Shown in pieces: positions 1 to 10,997 of a stretch of DNA of 64,000 bases. The stretch lies in the NCBI RefSeq assembly GCF_008364845.1, contig NZ_VTTP01000002.1:1-64000 (forward strand). The letters are read 5' to 3'. A program made the translations under genes and the position numbers. Under the pieces are notes generated by a model, which saw nothing but the letters and a program-made list of their open reading frames with translations, did no database searches and was not told the DNA's origin. How positions within the stretch are numbered: the first letter of the stretch is position 1; every line of letters begins with the position of its first letter. This stretch comes from Actinotalea subterranea. GTDB lineage: Bacteria > Actinomycetota > Actinomycetes > Actinomycetales > Cellulomonadaceae.

Positions 1-131
1 TACTACGCTGCCCACAGCCTCACGCCAACAGCGGAGGTCTCACACCAGTGAGTCTCCGGACACGCCGGGGCGGTTCACCCGCACAGTTGGCGAGCGTCTG
101 TGCAGTACTCGACCGTTGAGGTCCAGGACGC
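1..131. other. non-coding left edge of the window
   Basis: No gene is seen here. It lies downstream of the leftward aldolase gene that ends at 132. An imperfect stem-loop at 33-57 (GGAG/CTCC outer pairs, CTCAC/GTGAG inner pairs, ACCA loop) could be a weak transcription terminator for the leftward operon, but it has no T tract. Confidence 0.35.
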
Positions 132-920
132 CTACGACCGGACCCGAGCCTCCAGCATCGCGATTCGCGTATCGTCCTCATCTCGAAGAGTGTTGTAGTG
201 CTCGCGCTTGTTCAGCAGCCAAAGCAACTCAAACTCCATCGCGGCAAGTAGTGCTTGGCGCGAGGTCGGTCGGTCAAGGGCCTCGCCGCGGATGACGACC
301 TTACGTGTCTCGAATCGAGTTAGGTGCTCAGATCGCACATTCTCCAGTTCCGCTAACGAGTCGAGCGACACTCCACCGCCGACAACAAAGTCCAGCCCGC
401 GAAGGCGACAACTTCTGGCAGCCTCAAGAACGTAGTGAGTGATGGCTTCGGAGTTGACTGCGACGCGGTCCAACTGAAGACTCCCGGAGAAGTCCACGCG
501 CCCAAAGACCACGCCGTCCACGCCGTATGCTTCAGCGGCATGGTCGAGAATTTCTTCCCGGCGCTCAAAACACGTGATCGTTTCCATGTTGAACAGGAAG
601 CTTGTGTCATCTGTGGAGTCGGCGCCATACACTCGGTTCCTCGCCCCAATGTACTTCGACAGTGCAAATCGACTCTCGATCATTGGAGCCACGACGTAGC
701 TCGCCCCGAACAACCTAGCGTCCATCAGGTCGCGAACAGCCTCACATCCGCCGATCTTGATCGTCAACGGCAGCCCAGCGGCGTTGGCAATCTCGGCTAA
801 GCGCACCAGTTCGTCCGTACGGGTGCCCTCCGCCTCAAACTCCGCCTTGACGGATGCGTAGTCGAACTCTGACCGGCCAACTGTCAGGATCTCGACCATC
901 TGACGCTCGAACTCATTCAC
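132..920 (-). CDS. HpcH/HpaI aldolase / citrate lyase family protein
   Basis: Last gene of a leftward operon of five. The protein belongs to the aldolase/citrate lyase (HpcH/HpaI) TIM-barrel superfamily, whose members use a divalent metal to make or break a C-C bond next to pyruvate or acyl-CoA. Seen in sequence: an early VKAEFEAEGTR segment, LTIKIGGCEAVRDL, VAPMIES, FNMETI (candidate metal-binding Glu) and VFGRVDFSGSL, which matches the place of the family GPxDLxxS metal Asp loop. I chose GTG at 920 because a GGAG sits five bases before it and because family members begin shortly before this FEAEG segment; the frame is open up to ATG 1052, which would overlap the upstream gene by 47 bases. 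By context it may condense pyruvate with an aldose to give a 3-deoxy-ulosonic acid; this is inference. Confidence 0.8.
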   Translation of the reverse strand: MNEFERQMVEILTVGRSEFDYASVKAEFEAEGTRTDELVRLAEIANAAGLPLTIKIGGCEAVRDLMDARLFGASYVVAPMIESRFALSKYIGARNRVYGADSTDDTSFLFNMETITCFERREEILDHAAEAYGVDGVVFGRVDFSGSLQLDRVAVNSEAITHYVLEAARSCRLRGLDFVVGGGVSLDSLAELENVRSEHLTRFETRKVVIRGEALDRPTSRQALLAAMEFELLWLLNKREHYNTLRDEDDTRIAMLEARVRS

Positions 921-1005
921 AACTACTCCAAGGGTCGCGTTGTAAGCTGGCAAGACCTGCCGTGCGCGCGAAGGCGAGGGGCTCAACTGGCGACGGGCTG
1001 TTGCA

Positions 1006-2073
1006 TCAACGAGGAGCCGCCACCAGCGACTCAATGGCGGAAAGTGCTGCATGCTCTACCGATCGCCATCCGGCGCGACCGCTATCCGTCTCCACTTCCG
1101 AGACTCCTCCCCCCGGTCTGGGTAGGATAAGCCGGAACGCCGAGGCTGTGTGCTTCTTGTCGGAGCGGAAGGCTCTCTCAAAGGTAGCAATATCAAAACG
1201 GAGGAGCGCCGGCGGGAGATCGGGAGCCGAGGAGAGAAGTTCTCGAACGTGGGCTTCGAGCCTCTCGACAAGAGGTCCAGTGGACGCTGATGGGTGACGT
1301 ATCGCACACAGGATGCCGACGGCAACCGCGAGGCCGTGACTGAGCGAATGCCCCACGGCAGCCTCGAAGGCGTGCCCGAAAGTGTGTCCGAAATTGAGTA
1401 GCCGCCGCTCCCCATTATCGTACTCGTCAACCTCGACGAACCACTTCTTTGCGCGGAGGACTTGATCGATCAGCGCCGTGGGATTCGCGGCGAAGCCGTC
1501 ATAGTGCTCTAGATACTCCTGCATCGAGTCGGCGCCGCGGCAGTACGCAATCTTGGCCGCCTCGGCGAGACCCGCCGCGACCGCTGATTGTGTCAGGGAG
1601 GACAGAAAAGCCGGATCCACAAAGACTTGCTCAGGTGGGTGGAATCCGCCCACGACGTTCTTTATGCCGCCAGCGTTGATGGAACTCTTCCCGCCAATGC
1701 ACGAGTCCGCCATGGCCATTAGGGTTGTGGGTGCGTAGTCCCAATCTAGGCCCCGCATGTATACCTGCGCGACGAAAGACGTGAGATCTTGCGTGATCCC
1801 ACCACCGACCGCGAGGAGTCGGTCGCCACGCCTGATGTTCTCCTCCTTCAACCGGAGTATCAGGCTCTCGCAGGTTGCAAGCGTCTTCCCGCTCTCCACC
1901 GCTCCGATTTCCAGCACTGGCACATTGGTGACAGGGATGCGATCCCTCAAGGCGCTGTCGACGACAATCGCTGCCGGTTTGCAGTCTAGCGCATGGGTAA
2001 ACGCCCCTGGCCCGAGGCTCACATCGTAGGCCCCAGACGCTGACTGCACGCGAAACTTAGACTTGGTGACCAA
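1006..2073 (-). CDS. 3-dehydroquinate synthase family sugar-phosphate cyclase
   Basis: A 355-residue member of the dehydroquinate synthase/sugar phosphate cyclase family, NAD- and metal-dependent enzymes that oxidise, eliminate phosphate and close a carbocycle. Visible motifs: GGGITQDL (AroB usually has GGGVxGDL), PTTLMAMADSCIGGKSSINAG, the metal-ligand Glu in GLAEAAKIA, and both metal His positions in LLNFGHTFGHAFE and HGLAVAVGI, so the catalytic site looks complete. It is unlikely to be the housekeeping AroB: the NAD loop differs, the GC is low, and it sits between an aldolase, a dehydrogenase and a CMP-sugar synthetase. The start is TTG at 2073 with GGGG seven bases upstream; its first 17 bases overlap the SDR gene. 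It may cyclise the aldolase-derived 3-deoxy-ulosonate phosphate (inference). Confidence 0.85.
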   Translation of the reverse strand: MVTKSKFRVQSASGAYDVSLGPGAFTHALDCKPAAIVVDSALRDRIPVTNVPVLEIGAVESGKTLATCESLILRLKEENIRRGDRLLAVGGGITQDLTSFVAQVYMRGLDWDYAPTTLMAMADSCIGGKSSINAGGIKNVVGGFHPPEQVFVDPAFLSSLTQSAVAAGLAEAAKIAYCRGADSMQEYLEHYDGFAANPTALIDQVLRAKKWFVEVDEYDNGERRLLNFGHTFGHAFEAAVGHSLSHGLAVAVGILCAIRHPSASTGPLVERLEAHVRELLSSAPDLPPALLRFDIATFERAFRSDKKHTASAFRLILPRPGGGVSEVETDSGRAGWRSVEHAALSAIESLVAAPR

Positions 2074-2752
2074 TCGAATACCCCAAATCTACAACTAGGG
2101 ACTGGCCAGAGACGCCAGTGTTAAGAGGTGAGCAGAGATATGAGACAAGGGTCGCCACGGCTTCAGGTCTGATGAGTCGGTGGTGACCGGTGGAACGCTC
2201 GAACTCCTCGATCTGTCGGGCAGACAGCATTGCTCTGGTCATCGGGGTGTCGACAGGTCCCGGCAGAACTGCGTTGACGAGGACGCCGCGTCCCGCGAGA
2301 TCGAGAGCCGCGGCACGCACGAGCCCGGAGATCGCTGCTTTGGAGACCGTGTAGGTGAACTTACCGGGTCGCGCCGCGTTTGCCCAGATCGAGCTGACTA
2401 CGACGAGACGGGCGCCAGTGATGAGCCGCTCGGCTTCGATGAGCGATCGCATCTGCCGTGCAACGAGCGCAACGTTGGCCTCCAGAATCTGAGAGAGGTC
2501 CCGGTCTGAAAAGGTGGCGATGGAGTCGTTCACGTTCATGCCTTGTGCCCATACAACGGCGTGGAGTGTCGGAAGTCCCGTGACCGAGCCGTCGGCGGGA
2601 AGAATGACAGCCCCGGGTGATCCAGGTCTTGGCGTCCTAGACGACCGCAATACGTCGGATCCATCAGCGGCCAGTTGAGCGGCTATAGACGTGCCAAGCG
2701 CACCGAAACCCCCTATGACGAGCGCTCTTGGGCTGCGTGCGACTTCGCTCAT
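2057..2752 (-). CDS. short-chain dehydrogenase/reductase (SDR)
   Basis: A classical SDR of 231 residues, Rossmann fold, NAD(P)-dependent. The glycine motif GGFGALG lies near residue 15, a catalytic Ser in VVVSSIW, and the Tyr-x-x-x-Lys pair as YTVSK; the usual NNAG motif is replaced by WAQG. The start is ATG 2752 because AAGGAG stands seven bases before it; an in-frame GTG at 2758 would be only one base from that site. The 3' end overlaps the cyclase gene by 17 bases, suggesting translational coupling. Within this operon it probably reduces a keto intermediate of the CMP-sugar precursor, but the substrate cannot be read from the sequence. Confidence 0.85.
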   Translation of the reverse strand: MSEVARSPRALVIGGFGALGTSIAAQLAADGSDVLRSSRTPRPGSPGAVILPADGSVTGLPTLHAVVWAQGMNVNDSIATFSDRDLSQILEANVALVARQMRSLIEAERLITGARLVVVSSIWANAARPGKFTYTVSKAAISGLVRAAALDLAGRGVLVNAVLPGPVDTPMTRAMLSARQIEEFERSTGHHRLIRPEAVATLVSYLCSPLNTGVSGQSLVVDLGYSIGHQV

Positions 2753-2892
2753 CCTCACACTCCTTCGGGCGGTCGTTGCACGGAAGGTAGACGTCGTGCT
2801 GCTACCAATACGAGTAGAAGCTGCGCACGCTCAGTCCAGCGTTTTGTGTTGCAACTCTCGATGTGGATGCGAGTTCTAGTACTCGCGATGCG

Positions 2893-3603
2893 CTATACCT
2901 CAGCGCTGTTCTGCTCGAACTGCTGATAGAGGGGCCAAAGGAGTTCTGCAGTCCGGAGATCAAGGTCGTCGTCGACGTCGATGCCGGCCCATGAAGGGAC
3001 GATAAAGGCGGGATCTAGTGATTGAAACAGGGCTTCCGTGGCCATCACCTCCGACGTCCGTCTGAGCGAGAGGCCCCAGGTCACGCGGACCGGCGAAACG
3101 AGATCCTGGGAGTTGCGATGCGACCGGCCAGGAGTGAAATTCAACCACCTACCGTCATACCCGAAGTATCCGACGAGTCTCTCGACCGTCCCGAGGCCCG
3201 CGGTGCGTTGCACGTCGCTGATATGCGCGAATGTCTCAACCATCCCTCGGATGTGCCGTGGGCCGAAGAGCGGGGAAGTCGGGGGCGCCCATCCAAAGTA
3301 CTCGGTGCGTACAACCTGTGCGAGTGCGGTCACGACTTCGCTGAACGGAACGGTGGAAGACGCGAGGTAGTCTGAACGATGGTGCACGCCCACTCCTGCT
3401 TCCCTGGCGAGATGGAGGTAGGCTACGGAATCGGAGGACACCACGATTTGTTCGGTGGGAAACACCTGCTTCAACTGGTGCAACTTCCATGTCAACATCG
3501 TGTGGTCCGGAGCAAAGGAAAGCGGTGCGACGTTCTTACCTGGGAGGCGAGTGCTCCCTGAGCGTGCCGGCACAATCACTGTAATGTCGGAAGCTATCGT
3601 CAT
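2893..3603 (-). CDS. acylneuraminate cytidylyltransferase family protein (CMP-sugar synthetase)
   Basis: A 236-residue member of the NeuA/KdsB cytidylyltransferase family, which transfers CMP from CTP to the anomeric hydroxyl of an ulosonic acid. The N-terminal nucleotide-binding signature VIVPARSGSTRLPGKNV (residues about 9-25) is very clear, followed by VSSDS and a PPTSPL segment typical of the family. The C-terminal part ends with IDVDDDLDLRTAE, matching the family's metal-binding aspartates. Its ATG overlaps the stop of the upstream gene (ATGA), so the two are coupled. No NeuB-type synthase is next to it; the aldolase and cyclase stand in its place, so the activated sugar is probably not a standard sialic acid. 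Confidence 0.85.
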   Translation of the reverse strand: MTIASDITVIVPARSGSTRLPGKNVAPLSFAPDHTMLTWKLHQLKQVFPTEQIVVSSDSVAYLHLAREAGVGVHHRSDYLASSTVPFSEVVTALAQVVRTEYFGWAPPTSPLFGPRHIRGMVETFAHISDVQRTAGLGTVERLVGYFGYDGRWLNFTPGRSHRNSQDLVSPVRVTWGLSLRRTSEVMATEALFQSLDPAFIVPSWAGIDVDDDLDLRTAELLWPLYQQFEQNSAEV

Positions 3604-4913
3604 CTTCCGTCTCCTTGCTCGTTGCGCTCTGATTCTCTGACCGTGCTCCCTTGCTCGAGAAGCAAGTTCTCGAAGCGGACTCTGTCTGCGAGGAGGCCTC
3701 GGAGACGGTCGACGGTCTCTCCTGCGTCTGCCGTGCAGCCGAGGCCCACGACATCTAGCACTGCCAGGATCACTGACTCAACTTCCGATCGCGTCCAGTC
3801 GGAGACGCCGCCGTGGGACCTGGGGTCGATTCGGTCGAGTATCGCCGCGGCTTTTGTTCCGGAAGTGCTGACTTCCGGCACTTTGACGTCCATGCTGAAT
3901 TGCTGGGCGACGGCACGCTGAATGCGAATCGTCTCGGTTGTCGCAGCGGCGGCGGCCGGGTCGATTATGGCGTTGCGGATGAGTTCGGATGATGGCCATA
4001 TCACGCGAGTCCCGGGCTGGGTTGCGGATATGAGAATGTTCGGCGTGCCATCGTACCCAAAGAAGGCGCCGAGCCTCCAGTGTTCTGTGTAGGCGAAGCG
4101 GTCGAGGACATCGAGCGAGCCGAGGCTTGCGTCATACCCGATGAGGTCGGCCCAGGTTGTGAGCTCAACGTCTGGTGGAAGCACCTCTCGGATCCGTGCG
4201 AGCATCCGACGAAAGTCAACGAGTGACCGGGGGTCCGCTCGGACGATGAGGCGACGCGTCCCATGGGGCAGATCCAACTCCCCTAGGATGTCGGCGGCGG
4301 TCATCGCGCCACGCGTTGGGTACATCCGAGAGCGTCCCCAGTAACGCATAGCGACGAGCAGGTCATCCTGGTGCAGAACGTCCGATGGCCGGGGCCTCTC
4401 GGTCGGCCGCTCCCGCTCGAGCCACCGCCAGAACTCGCCGAGAGAGTCGACGGGGACTGTCTGCCAACTGACACTGCCCAGTTGTGTTGATACGAGTTGG
4501 TTGTGCAGTGTGTAGCCAAAGTAGAACAGCGAGCGGACGCGTTGTATGCCGGTATGTGGTGGATTGAATCGGAGTTCGTTTCGCAGTCCGTCGGCGCAGT
4601 AGTCGACGTGAGTAGTCTGGAGTGATTCGACGATGTCCTGCAAGTCCGCCCAGTGGGCGTAACTGTGTATCAGGACGGAGTCGTATATCCGTTTTCGAGC
4701 GGTCGCCATAGTCGTGGGCACTACTCCGACCGTACGAGCGAACGACTCGACGAGTTCGACACCTGGTTCGCGGGCACCGAGCACCACCAGATCGTGGTCG
4801 TCGTTCTGACGGAGTGCTACCGTCGCGAGCACGAGTGTGCTGAGGTAGGCACCGTTGGCGATCAGTAGGTGGCGCGTTATGGCGAACTCCTTTGTCGCTG
4901 GCCGAGCCTGCAC
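3600..4913 (-). CDS. putative CMP-sugar glycosyltransferase (sialyl/polysialyltransferase-like)
   Basis: A 437-residue protein that I cannot assign with certainty. The N-terminus (ITRHLLIANGAYLSTLVLA) followed by a long mixed domain resembles the polysialyltransferase and GT52 families, which use CMP-sugars and have a GT-B fold. Other visible landmarks are HVDYCADGLRNEL, FFGYDGTPNIL and a C-terminal charged tail. It is translationally coupled to the CMP-sugar synthetase downstream, which supports a role as the matching transferase (inference). The only conventional upstream start is GTG at 4913, but a strong AAGGAG lies six bases before an ATA codon at 4880, exactly where the conserved part begins; see findings. 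GC is far below that of the neighbours to the right. Confidence 0.6.
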   Translation of the reverse strand: MQARPATKEFAITRHLLIANGAYLSTLVLATVALRQNDDHDLVVLGAREPGVELVESFARTVGVVPTTMATARKRIYDSVLIHSYAHWADLQDIVESLQTTHVDYCADGLRNELRFNPPHTGIQRVRSLFYFGYTLHNQLVSTQLGSVSWQTVPVDSLGEFWRWLERERPTERPRPSDVLHQDDLLVAMRYWGRSRMYPTRGAMTAADILGELDLPHGTRRLIVRADPRSLVDFRRMLARIREVLPPDVELTTWADLIGYDASLGSLDVLDRFAYTEHWRLGAFFGYDGTPNILISATQPGTRVIWPSSELIRNAIIDPAAAAATTETIRIQRAVAQQFSMDVKVPEVSTSGTKAAAILDRIDPRSHGGVSDWTRSEVESVILAVLDVVGLGCTADAGETVDRLRGLLADRVRFENLLLEQGSTVRESERNEQGDGR

Positions 4914-5054: not shown

Positions 5055-7286
5055 TCAGGAACCCGCTGCGGCCATGTGGCGCCGGCGGCCGGTAAGGGCC
5101 CGGGCGCGCGCGACTGTCAGAACTGCTGCAAGTAGGAGACCCGCGGCGGCAAGTGCATCGGCCAGACCCTCGAGTGGCGTCCGATAGGTGAGAGTGACTT
5201 GCCAGCTGCCCTCCGGGACCTGGAGCGCGATCATGCCTGCAGGGCCGAGCGTGGGTTCGCCGACGGTCGCTCGCCCTTGTTCGTCGACTAGGAGCGCGGA
5301 CCAGCCGGTGTAGTAAGCCTCGTTGAGGACGACCGTCATCGGCACCTCGGCTTCGATCTCGTAGACGAACGTGTCGACGGCGTACGCGACGGGCGTCGTG
5401 GTCACGCCGTTGCACTGGTGGTCTTCCACGCATCGAGCGACGGCATCGGGGCTAGGCAGGTCGCCCGTCCAACCGATCGCGATTCCCGGGGCTTCCAGGA
5501 GAGCCGCCGCGGCCTCTGCCGTCGCTGGATCATCGAGGGCCTTGTGCGCCTCGACGAACGATGCCGACATGTGAACGTTAAGGTACCCGCCGACGCTAGG
5601 TATCCCCGTGTAGTAGGCGCTGTTATATCGCGTGCCAATGAGGTCTCTGCGTGTCGCCTCGGTCGCTCGGGCAGATCGGCCAACGCGCTGCGTCGAATCC
5701 GTGAGATCAACGTGATGGGCTATGAGTTCCGTTGACGTGGCTCCCCACAGCGCCTCCTGCGCGACCACCGAGTCGACGCGCCACAAGTCGCTGATCGCGC
5801 GGACATAGGTCAGGCCGGACCCTGCGGCGAGGGCAACGACGAGGGCGGCGGCGGCCGTGCTCCAGATGCCCGGTACTCGGCCGGTCAGGACTCCGAGTGC
5901 CGCCACCACCAGGGCCGAGGCGACTAGGACGCCGAACGTCGGCTGCCAGGTGCCCTCTCCGAACCTACCAAGGACGAGGAAGGAGACTGCGGCGACAGGG
6001 ATCAGCACCACCACGACGAGCCTGGTCGAGAGCTGGCGCCCTTGCAGCGGCATGCCGCGAGCGTCCAGCAGGCGCGCCAGCCCGGACATCCCGCCGATGA
6101 CGAGCGGCAGCAGGACGAACGGGCGGAAGTCGTTCAGGCGGAACCGGCTGGTGCCGATGCCGGGCAGCATCTCCACCGCGTCCCGGAACGGCAGTTGCGG
6201 CACCGTGATGACGAGCGTCACCGCGAGTGCGACAAGGGCCGCCCGGACGGCCGGCGACCGGAAGGAGACGAACGCGGCGAGGAGCAGGACCGCGGCGGGA
6301 ACGAAGTACGAGTTCATCGAGTAGATCCCGGGCAGCCCGGGAAACTCGGGCAGCACGAACGTCCCGAGCGTCGACCGTGCCAGGACGGACAGATCCTCCA
6401 CATCCCCGGGCTTGAACGTCCGGAGCACGAGGAGAGGCAGATACTTCGGCATCGAGAGCAGGAGGGCAACGAGTCCAGCACCGACGGCGGGGAGTGCGAA
6501 CCGCCGCAACGGCGCACGGGTACCGATCTGCCATGCGATGGCCCAAGCCGCGCCGGCGTACGCATAGGCGGTGAGCATGCCTGGGTAGACCCCGACTGCC
6601 GCCTGCCAGAAGACCACAGCCGCCGCGGGCACCGCCCACACGCGACGCCACGGCCACAAAGGGGACAGGCACAGGAGGACCCAAGGTGCCAGCGCGTGAC
6701 CACGCACGATGTCTACGTACGGTGCGTTCGAGAAGAACCCGGTGGAGAGGGAGTACGCCACGAGCCCGAGGAGAGGGGCGATCCGCCCGAGTCCTGCGCG
6801 CCTCCCGAGCACATACACACCGAGCCCGGCGATCGCGACGTGCAGGGCCTGCAGGACGGCTGCAGCGTGGATGTCGAAGCCCACGAGCGAGGCAATGCCG
6901 GCAGGCAGGTACCAGCCGCTGTTCTGGATCGACGCCACCGCGGGGTAGCCGCCCCAGACGTAGGGCATCCAGTCTGGAGGATCGAGAAGCCCGCCGTCGC
7001 GCCACCAGGCAACCGGCTCGTTGCTGTAGAGGCCGAGGAAGTCACCGGCGGGGGATGCCGCGCCCCCGTAGTACGCGTGGAACACCACGACCTGGATCGC
7101 AACGAGCGCTCCCAGGACGACGAGTGCCTCGAGGAGTGTCGGCGCCGTCGTGGCGCGCGCCCGTCGGATGGCGCTGCGAGCCCGGTCGATCATGTGGTGG
7201 CCCGGGGGATCCGTCGGCGCGCCCGCTCGGACCGCCTTGCTGCCGCCGGGTGCGGACGGGGCGGCAGCCGCCGGGCGTGACGCCAC
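5055..7286 (-). CDS. YfhO-like multi-pass membrane protein
   Basis: A large integral membrane protein with about a dozen hydrophobic segments followed by a C-terminal extracytoplasmic domain (last ~200 residues) and one final transmembrane helix. It resembles the YfhO/GT-C-type membrane proteins often found in polysaccharide and teichoic acid loci, which take sugars from polyprenyl phosphate carriers on the outer face. The order is N-terminal helix, a loop with aromatic and acidic residues (GDFLGLYSNEP), then the multi-helix body. The start is uncertain: GTG at 7286 lies just after the upstream stop with GAGG nine bases before it; ATG 7193 (MIDRARSAIRR directly before the first helix) and ATG 7307 are alternatives. 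It is probably co-transcribed with the amino-sugar genes to its right. Confidence 0.7.
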   Translation of the reverse strand: MASRPAAAAPSAPGGSKAVRAGAPTDPPGHHMIDRARSAIRRARATTAPTLLEALVVLGALVAIQVVVFHAYYGGAASPAGDFLGLYSNEPVAWWRDGGLLDPPDWMPYVWGGYPAVASIQNSGWYLPAGIASLVGFDIHAAAVLQALHVAIAGLGVYVLGRRAGLGRIAPLLGLVAYSLSTGFFSNAPYVDIVRGHALAPWVLLCLSPLWPWRRVWAVPAAAVVFWQAAVGVYPGMLTAYAYAGAAWAIAWQIGTRAPLRRFALPAVGAGLVALLLSMPKYLPLLVLRTFKPGDVEDLSVLARSTLGTFVLPEFPGLPGIYSMNSYFVPAAVLLLAAFVSFRSPAVRAALVALAVTLVITVPQLPFRDAVEMLPGIGTSRFRLNDFRPFVLLPLVIGGMSGLARLLDARGMPLQGRQLSTRLVVVVLIPVAAVSFLVLGRFGEGTWQPTFGVLVASALVVAALGVLTGRVPGIWSTAAAALVVALAAGSGLTYVRAISDLWRVDSVVAQEALWGATSTELIAHHVDLTDSTQRVGRSARATEATRRDLIGTRYNSAYYTGIPSVGGYLNVHMSASFVEAHKALDDPATAEAAAALLEAPGIAIGWTGDLPSPDAVARCVEDHQCNGVTTTPVAYAVDTFVYEIEAEVPMTVVLNEAYYTGWSALLVDEQGRATVGEPTLGPAGMIALQVPEGSWQVTLTYRTPLEGLADALAAAGLLLAAVLTVARARALTGRRRHMAAAGS

Positions 7287-7290
7287 GACG

Positions 7291-8244
7291 TCACGCCTCG
7301 CGCCCATCGGACGACACGGAGCCGGCCAGGGCGCGAAACTCGTCGTAGTCACGGATGTAGTCGGCACCGTCGTACGGGTGGGACGCGAACACCGCGAGCA
7401 CCGCGTCAGCGGAGTAGTCGAACTGCGTCCCCCACGTCATGGGCGGCATGTACAGGCCCACGTCGGGCTGGTCGAGGACGACCTCGTCCCGGCGTTCACC
7501 GTCGTCGACGATGCAGCGGACGGACCCGCGCAGCGACACCAGGACCTGCGAGCACTCGCGATGGGCATGCTCACCCCGGACGTCCTTCGAGGGCACGCCG
7601 AACACGGCGAAGAACCGTGCGGGGACGAAGGGCAGGTCCCGGGACATCTCGACAGCCGCGAGGGAACCGCGGAGGTCCTGAGCCACCGTGATCGAGATCA
7701 GCCGGGCTCCACCGACGAGTGCGGTGCTGGACGCGGCGACGGTGGCGCCTGCGGGATGCGACCTCTCCTCCGCCTGGGCGTCCTTGACGTAGCCGCGAAT
7801 GCGCGCAGGGTTGCCGACGACGATGGCGTTGGCCGGGACGTCGCGCGTGACGACCGCCCCCGCACCGACCATCGCGCCACGGCCCACCCGGATCCCGGGA
7901 AGGATCACGGAACCGCCTCCGAGCGATGCGCCGTCGGCGATCACGGTGCGGGGGAACTGCGTCGGGTACTGCTTGCTGCGGGGGAAGCGGTCGTTCGTGA
8001 AGGTGACGTTCGGACCGACGAACACGTCGTCACCGAGGCGGACGCCGTCCCAGAGCTGGACACCCGACTTGATGGTGACGCGGTCTCCCACGGTGACGTC
8101 GTTCTCGATGAAGACGTGGTCACAGATGTTGCAGTCCCGGCCGACGACGGCCCCGGGCAGGACGTGTGCGTAGGCCCAGACGCGGGTCCCTTCGCCCACG
8201 TGCTCCGACTCGCAGATGCCCTGCGGGTGTACGTAGGGGCTCAT
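7291..8244 (-). CDS. bifunctional hexapeptide acetyltransferase / dTDP-sugar 3,4-ketoisomerase (FdtD-like)
   Basis: A 317-residue two-domain protein. Residues ~1-170 form a left-handed beta-helix acyltransferase with repeated hexapeptides (for example IGDRVTIKSGV-like turns, NVTFTNDRFPRSK, IVVGNPARIRGYVKD), as in the sugar-amine N-acetyltransferases WxcM-N/FdtC. Residues ~180-317 form a cupin of the WxcM-C/FdtA type with the active-site histidines in RGEHAHRECSQ, the fold of dTDP-4-keto-6-deoxyglucose 3,4-ketoisomerases. The same fusion is known as FdtD. With the aminotransferase at 9614 it would give a dTDP-3-acylamino-3,6-dideoxyhexose. Its ATG overlaps the GtrA stop (ATGA), giving tight coupling. 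The dTDP-4-keto precursor needs RmlA (27946) and an RmlB that is not in this window. Confidence 0.88.
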   Translation of the reverse strand: MSPYVHPQGICESEHVGEGTRVWAYAHVLPGAVVGRDCNICDHVFIENDVTVGDRVTIKSGVQLWDGVRLGDDVFVGPNVTFTNDRFPRSKQYPTQFPRTVIADGASLGGGSVILPGIRVGRGAMVGAGAVVTRDVPANAIVVGNPARIRGYVKDAQAEERSHPAGATVAASSTALVGGARLISITVAQDLRGSLAAVEMSRDLPFVPARFFAVFGVPSKDVRGEHAHRECSQVLVSLRGSVRCIVDDGERRDEVVLDQPDVGLYMPPMTWGTQFDYSADAVLAVFASHPYDGADYIRDYDEFRALAGSVSSDGREA

Positions 8245-8660
8245 CCCTGTGTCCTCTCGAGCGGATCGGTCGGTGCGGCGACGCCGCGGGTGAGGAGGAG
8301 GCGCCCACCGATGAAGGTCAGGGGCGCCGTGACCAGCACGACGAGGCCGCTCCCGATGTCCGGCATCCCTGCGGCGTCGGCAAGGGCGACGACACCAAGC
8401 CCGACGACGTAGACGAGGAGGTACATCGCCACGTACAGGACGACCAGGCGTCGAGTCATCGCCACGCCGAAGACGAACCCGCCCGCCAGCGCCACCGAGA
8501 TGCCGATGCCCACTAGGAACACGATCGTGTAGGCAAGGCGCGGATCGATCACCTGCGCGAGGAGGGAGAGGGCCACCCCTGTGACCAGGGTGTTGAAACC
8601 GCCCGCGACGACGAAACGCCACGCAGACGACGTCAGCGAACGCGGGGCGTCAGCGCTCAC
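8241..8660 (-). CDS. GtrA family membrane protein
   Basis: A 139-residue protein with four predicted transmembrane helices and the GtrA signature near the N-terminus (WRFVVAGGFNTLV). GtrA proteins are thought to move polyprenyl-phosphate-linked sugars across the membrane. It directly follows a GtrB-like glycosyltransferase and its start overlaps that gene's end, the usual pairing for making and flipping a lipid-linked sugar donor. The downstream gene overlaps it by four bases. The sugar concerned is probably the amino sugar made by the flanking genes (inference). Confidence 0.85.
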   Translation of the reverse strand: MSADAPRSLTSSAWRFVVAGGFNTLVTGVALSLLAQVIDPRLAYTIVFLVGIGISVALAGGFVFGVAMTRRLVVLYVAMYLLVYVVGLGVVALADAAGMPDIGSGLVVLVTAPLTFIGGRLLLTRGVAAPTDPLERTQG

Positions 8661-9633
8661 CGCCGAACACCTCCACGCTCATGGCGATCGCGACGGGTCG
8701 TGACTTGCTGTTCTCGAAGGTCCTCCAGACGTAGGAGCCCACGATCCCGAGGCCCGAGAGCAGCGTGAAGGTCGAGAACAGCATGACGAGCATCAGTGGT
8801 GTGTACCCGGGGTTCTCTATGCGTCCGGTCGCCCAGCCGGCGAACACGACGATCGCGGCCACCGTGGTCAACAGCCCGCCCACCAGCCCCACGGTGCTGA
8901 GCAGGCTGATCGGGATGTCGGTGAACGAGAAGACGCTGTCGAGCAGGTATCGCACCCGCTTGTGGAACGTCCACCCCGAGCGACCCTCGGTCCGCGCGGC
9001 GCGCTCGTAGGGCACCTCCGCGCGACGGTAGCCCACCCAGTACAGAAGGCCGACGAGGCTCGAGTGTGCCTCGTCGAGGCGGAGCAGCTCTGTGGCGACC
9101 TCGCGTGTGCAGCCGAAGACGTCGACGCCTCCCCGCGGGATCGCAGGGTTGATCACCTTCCGGTACATCCACCAGAAGGTGCGGGACGCGAAGGAGCTCA
9201 TACCGGGGTCGGCGCGAGACATCCGGCGGCCGACGGCGACGTCCGCTCCGCCCGATGCGAGCTCGGCAAAGAACTGCTCCATGAGCTCGGGTGGCTCTTG
9301 GAGGTCCGCTGCCATGACCCCGATGTACTCGCCGCGTGCGACCGAGAGTCCTGTGCGAATCGCGGGGAACGAACCGAAGTTGCGCGAGTGCACGACGAGC
9401 TGGCTGGGCAGGGCTGCACCAGGGAGCAGGCGGCGGAGCACCAGCAGGGACGCATCGGGCGAACCGTCCACGACGAAGACGGCCTCCATGGGCCCGTCGA
9501 GGCGGCTCGCGACCTCGGACAGGCGTTCGATCACGGCCTGGAGAGTCGCCTCGTTCCCGTACACCGGGATGACGACCGAGTAGCGGATCTCGACCCCCGT
9601 GCTGGTCGCGTCGTCAGAAGGAGCCGAGGGCAT
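8650..9633 (-). CDS. GT2 glycosyltransferase, GtrB/DPM-like
   Basis: A 327-residue polyprenyl-phosphate glycosyltransferase. The N-terminal GT-A domain shows YSVVIPVYGNEATL, a donor-binding Asp region around VFVVDGSPD, and the MAADLQEPPEL motif that matches the DADLQ signature of dolichol/polyprenyl-phosphate sugar synthases. Two C-terminal helices (about residues 235-265 and 270-300) anchor it, as in GtrB. With GtrA it would build and flip the polyprenyl-phosphate sugar used by a GT-C enzyme such as the YfhO-like protein at 5055. It overlaps the aminotransferase gene by 20 bases. Confidence 0.87.
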   Translation of the reverse strand: MPSAPSDDATSTGVEIRYSVVIPVYGNEATLQAVIERLSEVASRLDGPMEAVFVVDGSPDASLLVLRRLLPGAALPSQLVVHSRNFGSFPAIRTGLSVARGEYIGVMAADLQEPPELMEQFFAELASGGADVAVGRRMSRADPGMSSFASRTFWWMYRKVINPAIPRGGVDVFGCTREVATELLRLDEAHSSLVGLLYWVGYRRAEVPYERAARTEGRSGWTFHKRVRYLLDSVFSFTDIPISLLSTVGLVGGLLTTVAAIVVFAGWATGRIENPGYTPLMLVMLFSTFTLLSGLGIVGSYVWRTFENSKSRPVAIAMSVEVFGGER

Positions 9634-10705
9634 CGCACACTCTCTCGACCTCGGAGTCCGTCAGCTCCGGGAACACGGGGACGGACAGGATCTGGTCTGC
9701 GGCGGCCTCGGTGACAGGCAGGTGAAGGTCCGCGTACTCGCCGCGGAAGGCCGGCTGCCGGTGATCGGGGATCGGGTAGTGGACGTCCGTCCTGATGCCC
9801 TGGGCGGCGAGGTGGTCGCGCAGAGCATCCCGACGGGGCGTCCGCACGACCGCGAGGTGCCCTGCGTGAGACGGCCCCTCCGCAGGGAGCACCCTGACGC
9901 CCGCGCTCGCCCGCGCCGCGTAGGCGCCGATGATGTCGCGTCGTCGTGCGTTGCCGGCATCGAGGGCCGGAAGCCGACCCCGGAGGATCGCAGCCTGGAG
10001 CTCGTCGAGGCGGGAGTTGCGCCCGCCGTCCTCGCCGATCGTGTACTTGCCGTGCCAGCCGTACTGTCGAAGCGTGCGCACCCGGGCCGCGATGTCCGGC
10101 AGCGACGTCGCAACGGCCCCGCCGTCGCCGAGGGCGCCGAGGTTCTTCGTGGGGTAGAAGCTGAACGCCGCGATGTCGCCGAGCGAGCCGACGCGGCCTG
10201 CGTCCAGCCTCGCGCCGAGAGCCTGTGCGCAGTCCTCCAGCACCACGGCGCCGAGCGGGTGCGCGAGCTCGCGGAATGCACTGACATCCGCGGCGCGACC
10301 GTAGAGGTGGGTCACGACGACGACTCCCACGGTGTCGTCGAGGGCCTTCGCTGCGGCCGCCGGGTCGAGGAGGAGGGTGGCCTCGTCGATGTCGGCATAC
10401 CGGACCTCGAACCCCGCGCGGCGGGCGGCCGTCGTCGTGTACCCGCCGCAGTTGGCCGCGGTCAACACCGTCCGGCGTCCGGCGGGCATGCTCGCCCTGA
10501 GCGCGAGCTCGAGGGCGTCGGTGCCGCTCGCAACACCCACCGCCTGGTCGGCCCCCACGTACTGAGCGAGCGCGTCCTCGAAGGCGGCGTGCTCGGGTCC
10601 CTGGACCAGCCAACCGCTGTCGAGCGTTCCGGTGAATGCGGCCAGCAGCTGGTCCCGCTCTGCTGTCAGCGCACGGCCGAGGTCATTCATGGGAACCCAC
10701 TGCAT
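9614..10705 (-). CDS. DegT/DnrJ/EryC1/StrS family sugar aminotransferase
   Basis: A 363-residue PLP-dependent aminotransferase that puts an amino group on a keto-sugar nucleotide. Visible: the substrate loop SGTDALELAL (residues 60-69), the PLP-ring Asp in LEDCAQALGA (D158, Q161), and the Schiff-base lysine in SFYPTKNLGALGDGG (K187). Family length is about 365-390, so it is complete. ATG 10705 was chosen: it has GGAG ten bases upstream and gives the usual N-terminus; ATG 10690 is a close alternative. By its neighbour, the fused acetyltransferase/ketoisomerase, it is most like FdtB, making a 3-amino-3,6-dideoxyhexose, although amination at C4 is not excluded. Confidence 0.88.
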   Translation of the reverse strand: MQWVPMNDLGRALTAERDQLLAAFTGTLDSGWLVQGPEHAAFEDALAQYVGADQAVGVASGTDALELALRASMPAGRRTVLTAANCGGYTTTAARRAGFEVRYADIDEATLLLDPAAAAKALDDTVGVVVVTHLYGRAADVSAFRELAHPLGAVVLEDCAQALGARLDAGRVGSLGDIAAFSFYPTKNLGALGDGGAVATSLPDIAARVRTLRQYGWHGKYTIGEDGGRNSRLDELQAAILRGRLPALDAGNARRRDIIGAYAARASAGVRVLPAEGPSHAGHLAVVRTPRRDALRDHLAAQGIRTDVHYPIPDHRQPAFRGEYADLHLPVTEAAADQILSVPVFPELTDSEVERVCDALGSF

Positions 10706-10997
10706 GGGACGAGCTCTCCTTAAGCCTGGGGCCGGCGAGACGCGGTCGCCCCACGGATGCGGAGACGGCCGGGGCGAGCGTAGAACGGCATGCAGGGCGT
10801 GGCCTGGTCCCCGCAGCCGGACGGTGAACGGCGGATCGTGACGAAGGCCCGACCGCGCTCGCATCGCCCCCGAGGCAGGTCCGCCTGGCAACCATGACGT
10901 CGGCAGGTCCGGCCGGACATCGTCGAGAGCCTAGTCGATGCTCCGCGCAGCTTGCCGGGAATGGCGGTGCTGTACGAACGGCGTCCCCGACGCCCCT
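10706..10997. other. intergenic leader of the aminotransferase operon
   Basis: This 292-base stretch holds no convincing gene. On the minus strand two TAnnnT-type -10 boxes are visible, TACGCT at 10782-10777 and TAGGCT at 10933-10928; either could start a transcript for the aminotransferase and the genes to its left. No -35 box close to TTGACA stands 17 bases upstream of either, so both remain candidates. No T-tailed terminator for the acyltransferase gene was found. Confidence 0.35.

Follow-up and report, generated by a model that had tools for sequence, protein, structure and literature searches.

A five-gene module of Actinotalea subterranea with an HpcH/HpaI-type aldolase, an AroB-like cyclase and a NeuA/KdsB-type cytidylyltransferase: a candidate pathway for a 3-deoxy-2-ulosonic acid

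The DNA analyzed here, called the window below, covers the opening 64 kb of contig C21 in the assembly of Actinotalea subterranea (4.03 Mb in 28 contigs, completeness 100), and our subject is a module of five leftward genes lying next to the contig end. They encode an HpcH/HpaI-type aldolase (ald), an AroB-like cyclase/phospholyase (cyc), a short-chain dehydrogenase/reductase (SDR), a NeuA/KdsB-type cytidylyltransferase (ctp) and an orphan protein of 437 amino acids ('st'). An earlier note on this DNA had listed five leftward open reading frames at 132-4913, several of them overlapping, and had suggested an unusual, possibly carbocyclic, acidic sugar activated with cytidine monophosphate (CMP). 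Each frame was found intact and four of the five gave family matches. SDR and cyc overlap by 17 bases, an overlap which is identical in the related clusters L024 and L026, and ctp and 'st' by 4 bases, whereas ald and cyc are separated by a gap of 85 bases when ald starts at 920; the description of the locus was confirmed in part. We propose, with a probability of roughly 45%, that the module directs the synthesis of a 3-deoxy-2-ulosonic acid, with phosphate eliminated and no ring closed, as well as its activation and perhaps its transfer.

Table 1. Features of the five-gene module and its surroundings, with positions counted from the first letter of the window.
Feature	Position	Strand	Remarks
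HpcH/HpaI-type aldolase (ald)	132..920, frame open to 1052	-	PF03328 25.6 bits; likely GTG start at 920
AroB-like cyclase/phospholyase (cyc)	1006..2073	-	PF01761/PF24621; TTG start as in relatives
Short-chain dehydrogenase/reductase (SDR)	2057..2758	-	PF13561 (adh_short_C2) 108.6 bits
NeuA/KdsB-type cytidylyltransferase (ctp)	2893..3603	-	PF02348 (CTP_transf_3) 60.4 bits, gathering 22.6
Orphan 437-aa protein ('st')	3600..4913	-	no family match; overlaps ctp by 4 bases
GtrA-type flippase and GtrB-type GT2, upstream of the module	8241..9633	-	PF04138 26.8 bits (gathering 26.1), PF00535
Contig-end repeat	1..77	.	blastn against 48 loci, of which 47 are contig ends or small contigs; insertion-sequence-like, not classified

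The assignment of ald to the HpcH/HpaI aldolases held narrowly, its PF03328 score of 25.6 bits standing just above the gathering threshold of 25. The protein is 54-61% identical to 15 aligned relatives, and since these start near MNKTERQM, the GTG at 920 is its most likely start, so that ald and cyc do not overlap. E113 and D143 (P0001) align in a weak match (E 0.34) with the VES and GPADLS motifs of YfaU (2vws), which we take to be the metal-binding Glu and Asp motifs of HpcH/HpaI aldolases.

Cyc scored 111 bits with the Pfam DHQ_synthase profile and 85.7 bits with DHQS_C. Its best NCBIfam family was TIGR04425 (263.6 bits, below the cut-off of 400), and TIGR01357 was matched at 233 bits without reaching its cut-off of 305. 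With the window itself set aside, a sample of 199 genomes of relatives gave its top TIGR04425 match in G039, of the same family, on a contig of a Cellulomonas metagenome-assembled genome. The AroB-like gene of the A. subterranea genome is a separate one, located on another contig and 35% identical to cyc. A tree of 38 cyclases placed 13 aldolase-linked cyclases, including that of the window, in one group (support 100/99) apart from 25 other rows, which comprised 22 AroB-like proteins, one encoded beside a 3-deoxy-D-arabino-heptulosonate 7-phosphate (DAHP) synthase and a polyketide synthase gene, one beside a dehydroquinate dehydratase and one on a long branch; some branches of this tree are long, three of the 25 rows were identified by annotation, and EEVS, DOIS and EboD were not included. 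The separate AroB gene and the separate group led us to reject cyc as the housekeeping AroB, in line with the earlier note. E171, H230 and H246, presumably the metal ligands that the note had described as kept, are present in all 13 aldolase-linked cyclases, and so are the positions invariant in the 22 AroB-like rows that we take to be catalytic. Position 210, adjoining the invariant K209, is K or R in 13/13 aldolase-linked cyclases versus A in 22/22 AroB-like rows, which suggests a substrate other than that of AroB; position 130 is S in the former and T in the latter, again throughout. The PDB entries 2d2x and 4p53 matched cyc less strongly than AroB chains did.

The SDR of the window is 64% identical to the SDR beside the cyclase of the Cellulomonas cluster L024. 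Ctp is the sole PF02348 match in the assembly (E<=0.01), where no second cytidylyltransferase was found, and its nearest PDB chains are NeuA and KdsB proteins (9t4z, 9ftb and 3oam). It stays under the equivalog cut-offs of both PseF (46.5 versus 205.7) and kdsB (19.1 versus 155.2). A relative at 35% identity occurs in Subdoligranulum beside a GT99-type protein, GT99 being a family of 3-deoxy-D-manno-octulosonic acid (Kdo) transferases; no similarity was detected between this neighbor and 'st'. The label of 'sialyltransferase-like' given earlier to 'st' was not sustained, as no Pfam match was obtained even at E<=10 and the best PDB match was a single chain at E 0.081. Its structure model was unreliable (mean predicted local distance difference test score 41.8), no relatives were found in plasmids, phages or viral contigs, and a search of 396 genomes returned its own copy and one weak match. 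Judged from its position, 'st' is possibly a glycosyltransferase.

To describe the relatives, a collection scan with a two-row aldolase alignment was performed and led to 17 loci. An aldolase profile search gave 5 positives, including the window, among 396 genomes of the phylum, and an aldolase search gave 6 positives among 248 genomes of genus g72, which loci identical to named ones assign to Mycobacterium. A search of 346 Mycobacterium genomes with the thiamine enzyme of M. bohemicum gave 16 positives. After repeats had been dropped (L119, L120, L141 and L143 are the same as L039, L037, L035 and L034, and L144 and L040 form one cluster), 32 non-redundant clusters remained in addition to the window. 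The aldolase is present in 25 of them; the other 7, recovered through the thiamine enzyme, lack it. Of the five-gene order from which the earlier note had reasoned, the aldolase-cyclase-SDR core recurs in 16 of these clusters, and ctp and 'st' in none of the 32. A thiamine enzyme resembling YerE is encoded in 30 of the 32; L036 is truncated by a contig end, and L106 is without it. Genes for dideoxyhexoses linked to cytidine diphosphate (CDP) are usual, mostly RfbF/G/H together with GtrB/GtrA; in L026, RfbF, RfbG and RfbH exceed their NCBIfam cut-offs, and the thiamine enzyme matches PDB entry 8rph, presumably JanthE, at 7.1e-91, the next match being at 1.1e-54, well ahead of acetolactate synthases. 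These relatives' clusters are pathways for C4-branched sugars such as caryophyllose. The L106 aldolase lies near an ATP-grasp protein and a NAD-dependent epimerase.

Aldolase and NeuB replace each other in these clusters. NeuB was found in 7/7 clusters without the aldolase, and the two occurred together in 0/32; PF03102 gave 128-137 bits in the three NeuB proteins tested (L142, L145 and L146), and the other four were recognized by phmmer. Among the 16 Mycobacterium clusters that had been selected by the thiamine enzyme, 9 carried the aldolase, 7 carried NeuB, and none carried both or neither; in genome G863 a distance of about 13 kb separates aldolase and thiamine enzyme, L040 and L144 being on contigs of equal length. 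Because each replaces the other, a 3-deoxy-2-keto acid is the most likely product of the aldolase, and we consider that this enzyme probably stands in for NeuB. An aldolase or a NeuB adjoining the thiamine enzyme also explains the source of its donor acid. Together with the NeuA/KdsB-type transferase in the operon of the window, this alternation upholds that part of the earlier proposal in which an aldolase replaces a synthase dependent on phosphoenolpyruvate (PEP) in an unusual acid pathway. L146 encodes at 7964-9481 a NeuB-family synthase of 505 amino acids with a cupin domain, in a mycobacterial thiamine-enzyme cluster. L142 and L145 are NeuB-type clusters with a thiamine enzyme in which neither phosphatase nor cyclase was detected.

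A second alternation concerns the cyclase. Cyc with SDR was present in 16 of the 32 clusters, a HAD phosphatase in 11 and neither in 5, and no cluster had both (hypergeometric 3.4e-5; the rows are not independent, L149/L150 being 98.9% and L147/L148 94.7% alike). The HAD identity is based on Pfam in 4 of the 11 (L028, L034, L146 and L149) and on similarity to those in the remainder. Cyc and SDR occurred in 16/25 aldolase-type and 0/7 NeuB-type clusters, and they travel as a pair to different cluster positions. When 23 labelled rows were placed on the aldolase tree, with the window counted as cyc and 3 rows with neither gene omitted, the well-supported branches required at least four changes between cyc and HAD, for example in the sister pair L025 (cyc) and L028 (HAD). 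As few changes were needed in 190 of 500 label shuffles, so that the label tracks the tree no better than chance. Because the tree forces these changes, cyc with SDR and HAD seem to have been swapped repeatedly while the rest was unchanged, and we take the two as alternative means by which phosphate is probably stripped from what the aldolase makes. An action of the cyclase on the aldolase product, as an alternative to the phosphatase, is accordingly the option we favor. Of the 7 mycobacterial clusters with a cyclase, 6 have an FGGY sugar kinase adjoining it, which may supply the phosphate (L037:12689-13966, L039, L122, L123, L124 and L144); in the 9 remaining cyclase clusters no such kinase was found.

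Several expected partners were looked for in the whole assembly. The lack of a NeuB/KdsA-type synthase, reported earlier for the neighborhood of the module, extends to the assembly, which gave no match to PF03102 or PF00793 (E<=1). No CDP-glucose dehydratase (TIGR02622) exceeded its cut-off in this genome, and no close match to a YerE-like thiamine enzyme was found, the best being 32% identical.

From the gene families, their linkage, the two alternations (aldolase/NeuB and cyc with SDR/HAD) and these absences, all directly observed, we infer the following reactions. The aldolase would join pyruvate and a phosphorylated aldose into a 3-deoxy-2-keto acid phosphate, doing the job of NeuB or KdsA without PEP. 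The AroB-like enzyme would then oxidize this product, eliminate its terminal phosphate and reduce it again, the ring not being closed onto C2, and the SDR would reduce the resulting methyl ketone to give a terminally deoxygenated 3-deoxy-2-ulosonic acid; a tetrose phosphate acceptor would yield 3,7-dideoxy-heptulosonate. The NeuA/KdsB-like enzyme would form the CMP-sugar, for which 'st' may be the transferase. In the relatives, the same type of acid would pass to the YerE-like thiamine enzyme, to be decarboxylated and added to C4 of a CDP-3,6-dideoxy-4-ketohexose. AroB ring closure consumes the C2 carbonyl. It is with this carbonyl that the thiamine enzyme must form its acyl anion, and the hemiketal hydroxyl on which a NeuA/KdsB-type enzyme depends arises from it as well. 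A free 2-keto group being required by both consumers, we favor loss of the phosphate with no ring closed over a carbocycle, and the absence of closure at C2 is our tentative choice. For none of the species in the cluster set is a sugar structure known to us. For AroB itself, PMC7144000 reports little evidence that the enzyme participates in the last two steps. PMC12247030 describes YerE as decarboxylating pyruvate and adding the activated acetaldehyde to CDP-3,6-dideoxy-4-ketoglucose, and reports that the YerE-like enzymes ErwE and MMAR_2332 prefer hydroxylated alpha-keto acids and that MygE, tied to gastriose, uses alpha-keto acids of C3 to C8 when the acceptor is benzaldehyde. The caryophyllose branch, a 1,3,4,5-tetrahydroxyhexyl group according to PMC5706390, fits a 3,7-dideoxy-heptulosonate donor.

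A number of points weigh against this pathway. Ald has no significant PDB match, is distant from the characterized aldolases and barely exceeds its Pfam cut-off; in the aldolase tree its branch is long, and the row reached from it by the shortest path is the HAD-type L028. The link to CMP rests on a single operon, because ctp and 'st' accompany the aldolase in the window only and in 0/32 other clusters, and the window yielded no counterpart of the NAD-epimerase-type gene that the relatives have. Five clusters (L033, L035, L121, L142 and L145) have neither cyc nor a detected phosphatase; the HAD queries were taken from these same loci, so that distant HADs could escape. L106, a distant relative of the aldolase in genome G568 and possibly another use of the same acid, has a HAD phosphatase and GtrB without a thiamine enzyme. 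Real ring closure by cyc is possible, given its kept catalytic positions. As to the thiamine enzymes, PMC12247030 gives ketone acceptors in vitro as pending for MMAR_2332 and undetected for MygE. Finally, the contig ends only 131 bases beyond the aldolase gene, so that additional genes may be missing.

This contig end was compared with other loci (Table 1). Bases 1-77 are also present at five other contig ends, and parts of 27-34 bases at five more compared loci; carried at six contig ends in all, the 77-base repeat is the mark of a multi-copy element. When the aldolase, cyclase, SDR, cytidylyltransferase, 'st', thiamine enzyme and epimerase were used as tblastn queries against the 48 loci, only weak matches and one SDR of a different kind were recovered (up to about 3 kb per end, the far ends of C14, C15 and C21 lying outside and the CDP genes not being queried).

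A carbocyclic, quinate-like acid, as the earlier note had put it, made by true AroB chemistry, reduced by the SDR and activated with CMP at a tertiary hydroxyl, is unlikely but the most serious of the other explanations. It would account for the AroB catalytic positions kept in 13/13 proteins, for a cyclase that adjoins the aldolase, and for the confinement of this cyclase to aldolase-type clusters (16/25, versus 0/7 of the NeuB type); an aldolase product can be DAHP-like. Such closure would leave the NeuA/KdsB-type enzyme no anomeric hydroxyl, and 15 of the 16 other cyclase clusters hold a YerE-like enzyme requiring the 2-keto acid, the sixteenth (L036) being cut by a contig end. The alternation of cyc and SDR with a plain phosphatase also speaks against a carbocycle, and K/R at position 210 (13/13), where AroB-like proteins have A (22/22), suggests another substrate. 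Since the consumers need a 2-keto group lost in AroB-type closure, the carbocycle is not supported as originally worded, and the earlier interpretation as a whole is partly supported. The carbocycle in its most far-reaching form, a CMP-activated carbocyclic ulosonic acid arising from a PEP-independent aldolase, closure by a new clade of the AroB family and CMP on a tertiary carbinol without ring oxygen, we hold to be rather unlikely; to our knowledge no nucleotide-activated carbasugar acid of that kind has been described.

It is also doubtful, and a little more so, that ald, cyc and SDR are the remnant of a YerE-type branched-sugar cluster from which the thiamine enzyme and the CDP genes have disappeared, ctp and 'st' being chance neighbors. 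The repeat at the contig end, the absence of a thiamine gene from the cyclase-aldolase slot and the long aldolase branch point in that direction; the five genes are nevertheless all open, close together, on one strand and of similar GC content, and a permissive tblastn of the 85-base gap gave, among the matches listed, only short ones at chance level and no convincing trace of a thiamine gene. An order in which the cyclase acts before the aldolase, whose acceptor would then be a cyclitol or deoxysugar formed by the cyclase from a sugar phosphate and processed by the SDR, appears improbable: it would agree with the relocation of SDR and cyclase as a pair and with the FGGY kinase beside 6/7 mycobacterial cyclases, but no product of the AroB family is known to have an aldehyde for the aldolase, and alternation with a phosphatase better suits a step on the aldolase product. 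Least probable is an ordinary C4-branched CDP-sugar pathway with its thiamine and CDP genes in an assembly gap, since the shared ald-cyc-SDR core (16 clusters, 15 with the thiamine enzyme) and the contig break beside the aldolase are outweighed by an assembly of completeness 100 in which neither a CDP-glucose dehydratase above cut-off nor a close thiamine enzyme turned up, by examined contig ends near which the thiamine enzyme and the epimerase gave nothing better than E 0.04, and by a CMP-transferase found here and in 0/32 other clusters.

The GC content of the five genes is 58-61%, low relative to the adjoining genes up to 13 kb (67-75%) and to the window as a whole (73.5%), which suggests that the module was gained laterally, and we regard it as probably so acquired. 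The GtrA/GtrB pair upstream of it is a possible exporter of a lipid-linked sugar, and relatives of both families are present in many aldolase clusters too. At 7291-10891, a reading frame of the FdtA/hexapeptide-acyltransferase type and a DegT aminotransferase lie with GtrB and GtrA, adjoining the module; these genes are probably a supply and export set for a 3-amino-3,6-dideoxyhexose. At 5055-7367, a protein of 770 amino acids is encoded that gave no match in Pfam (E<=1e-5) or NCBIfam (E<=1e-10) and looks membrane-like by eye; it is perhaps a GT-C transferase.

If the proposed pathway is correct, a non-PEP aldolase can replace NeuB for acids feeding C-branched sugars and, in the window, CMP activation, and the donor for caryophyllose and gastriose gains candidate genes. 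The system allows a direct test of an AroB-family enzyme as a phosphate lyase without ring closure, partnered with a reductase that would form the methyl terminus. The sibling clusters, which differ mainly in cyclase and SDR versus phosphatase, constitute a natural experiment.

We know of no characterized pathway with this gene set. A literature search, judged by titles and the beginnings of abstracts and with subscription papers mostly outside it, showed, among the papers listed, nothing on the set except a review on thiamine enzymes. EboD, encoded in the conserved ebo operon, likewise belongs to a clade of sugar phosphate cyclases with no substrate known; ebo operons, unlike the window, include a UbiA-type prenyltransferase and other genes, and the words 'aldolase' and 'cytidylyl' are absent from the main text of PMC5133447. 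With AroB (3-dehydroquinate synthase) and aminoDHQS, cyc shares the sequence family and the catalytic positions and groups separately (100/99). Its nearest named family, TIGR04425 (AroB-related putative sugar phosphate phospholyase, cyclizing), gave the top NCBIfam score both for cyc (263.6 bits) and for the cyclase of M. bohemicum (324.7), each under 400, and we know of no tested function for that family. The NeuB-NeuA and KdsA-KdsB systems of sialic acids and Kdo have, like the window, a NeuA/KdsB-type cytidylyltransferase with a 2-keto-3-deoxy acid as the expected substrate, whereas the assembly studied here has an HpcH/HpaI aldolase instead of NeuB or a PF00793 synthase. The YerE-like pathways to C4-branched dideoxyhexoses (yersiniose, erwiniose, caryophyllose with MMAR_2332 and gastriose with MygE; PMC12247030) are akin in that relatives of ald, cyc and SDR are clustered with a YerE-like enzyme; by comparison, the A. 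subterranea assembly is without a close thiamine enzyme or a CDP-glucose dehydratase over cut-off and has a CMP-transferase.

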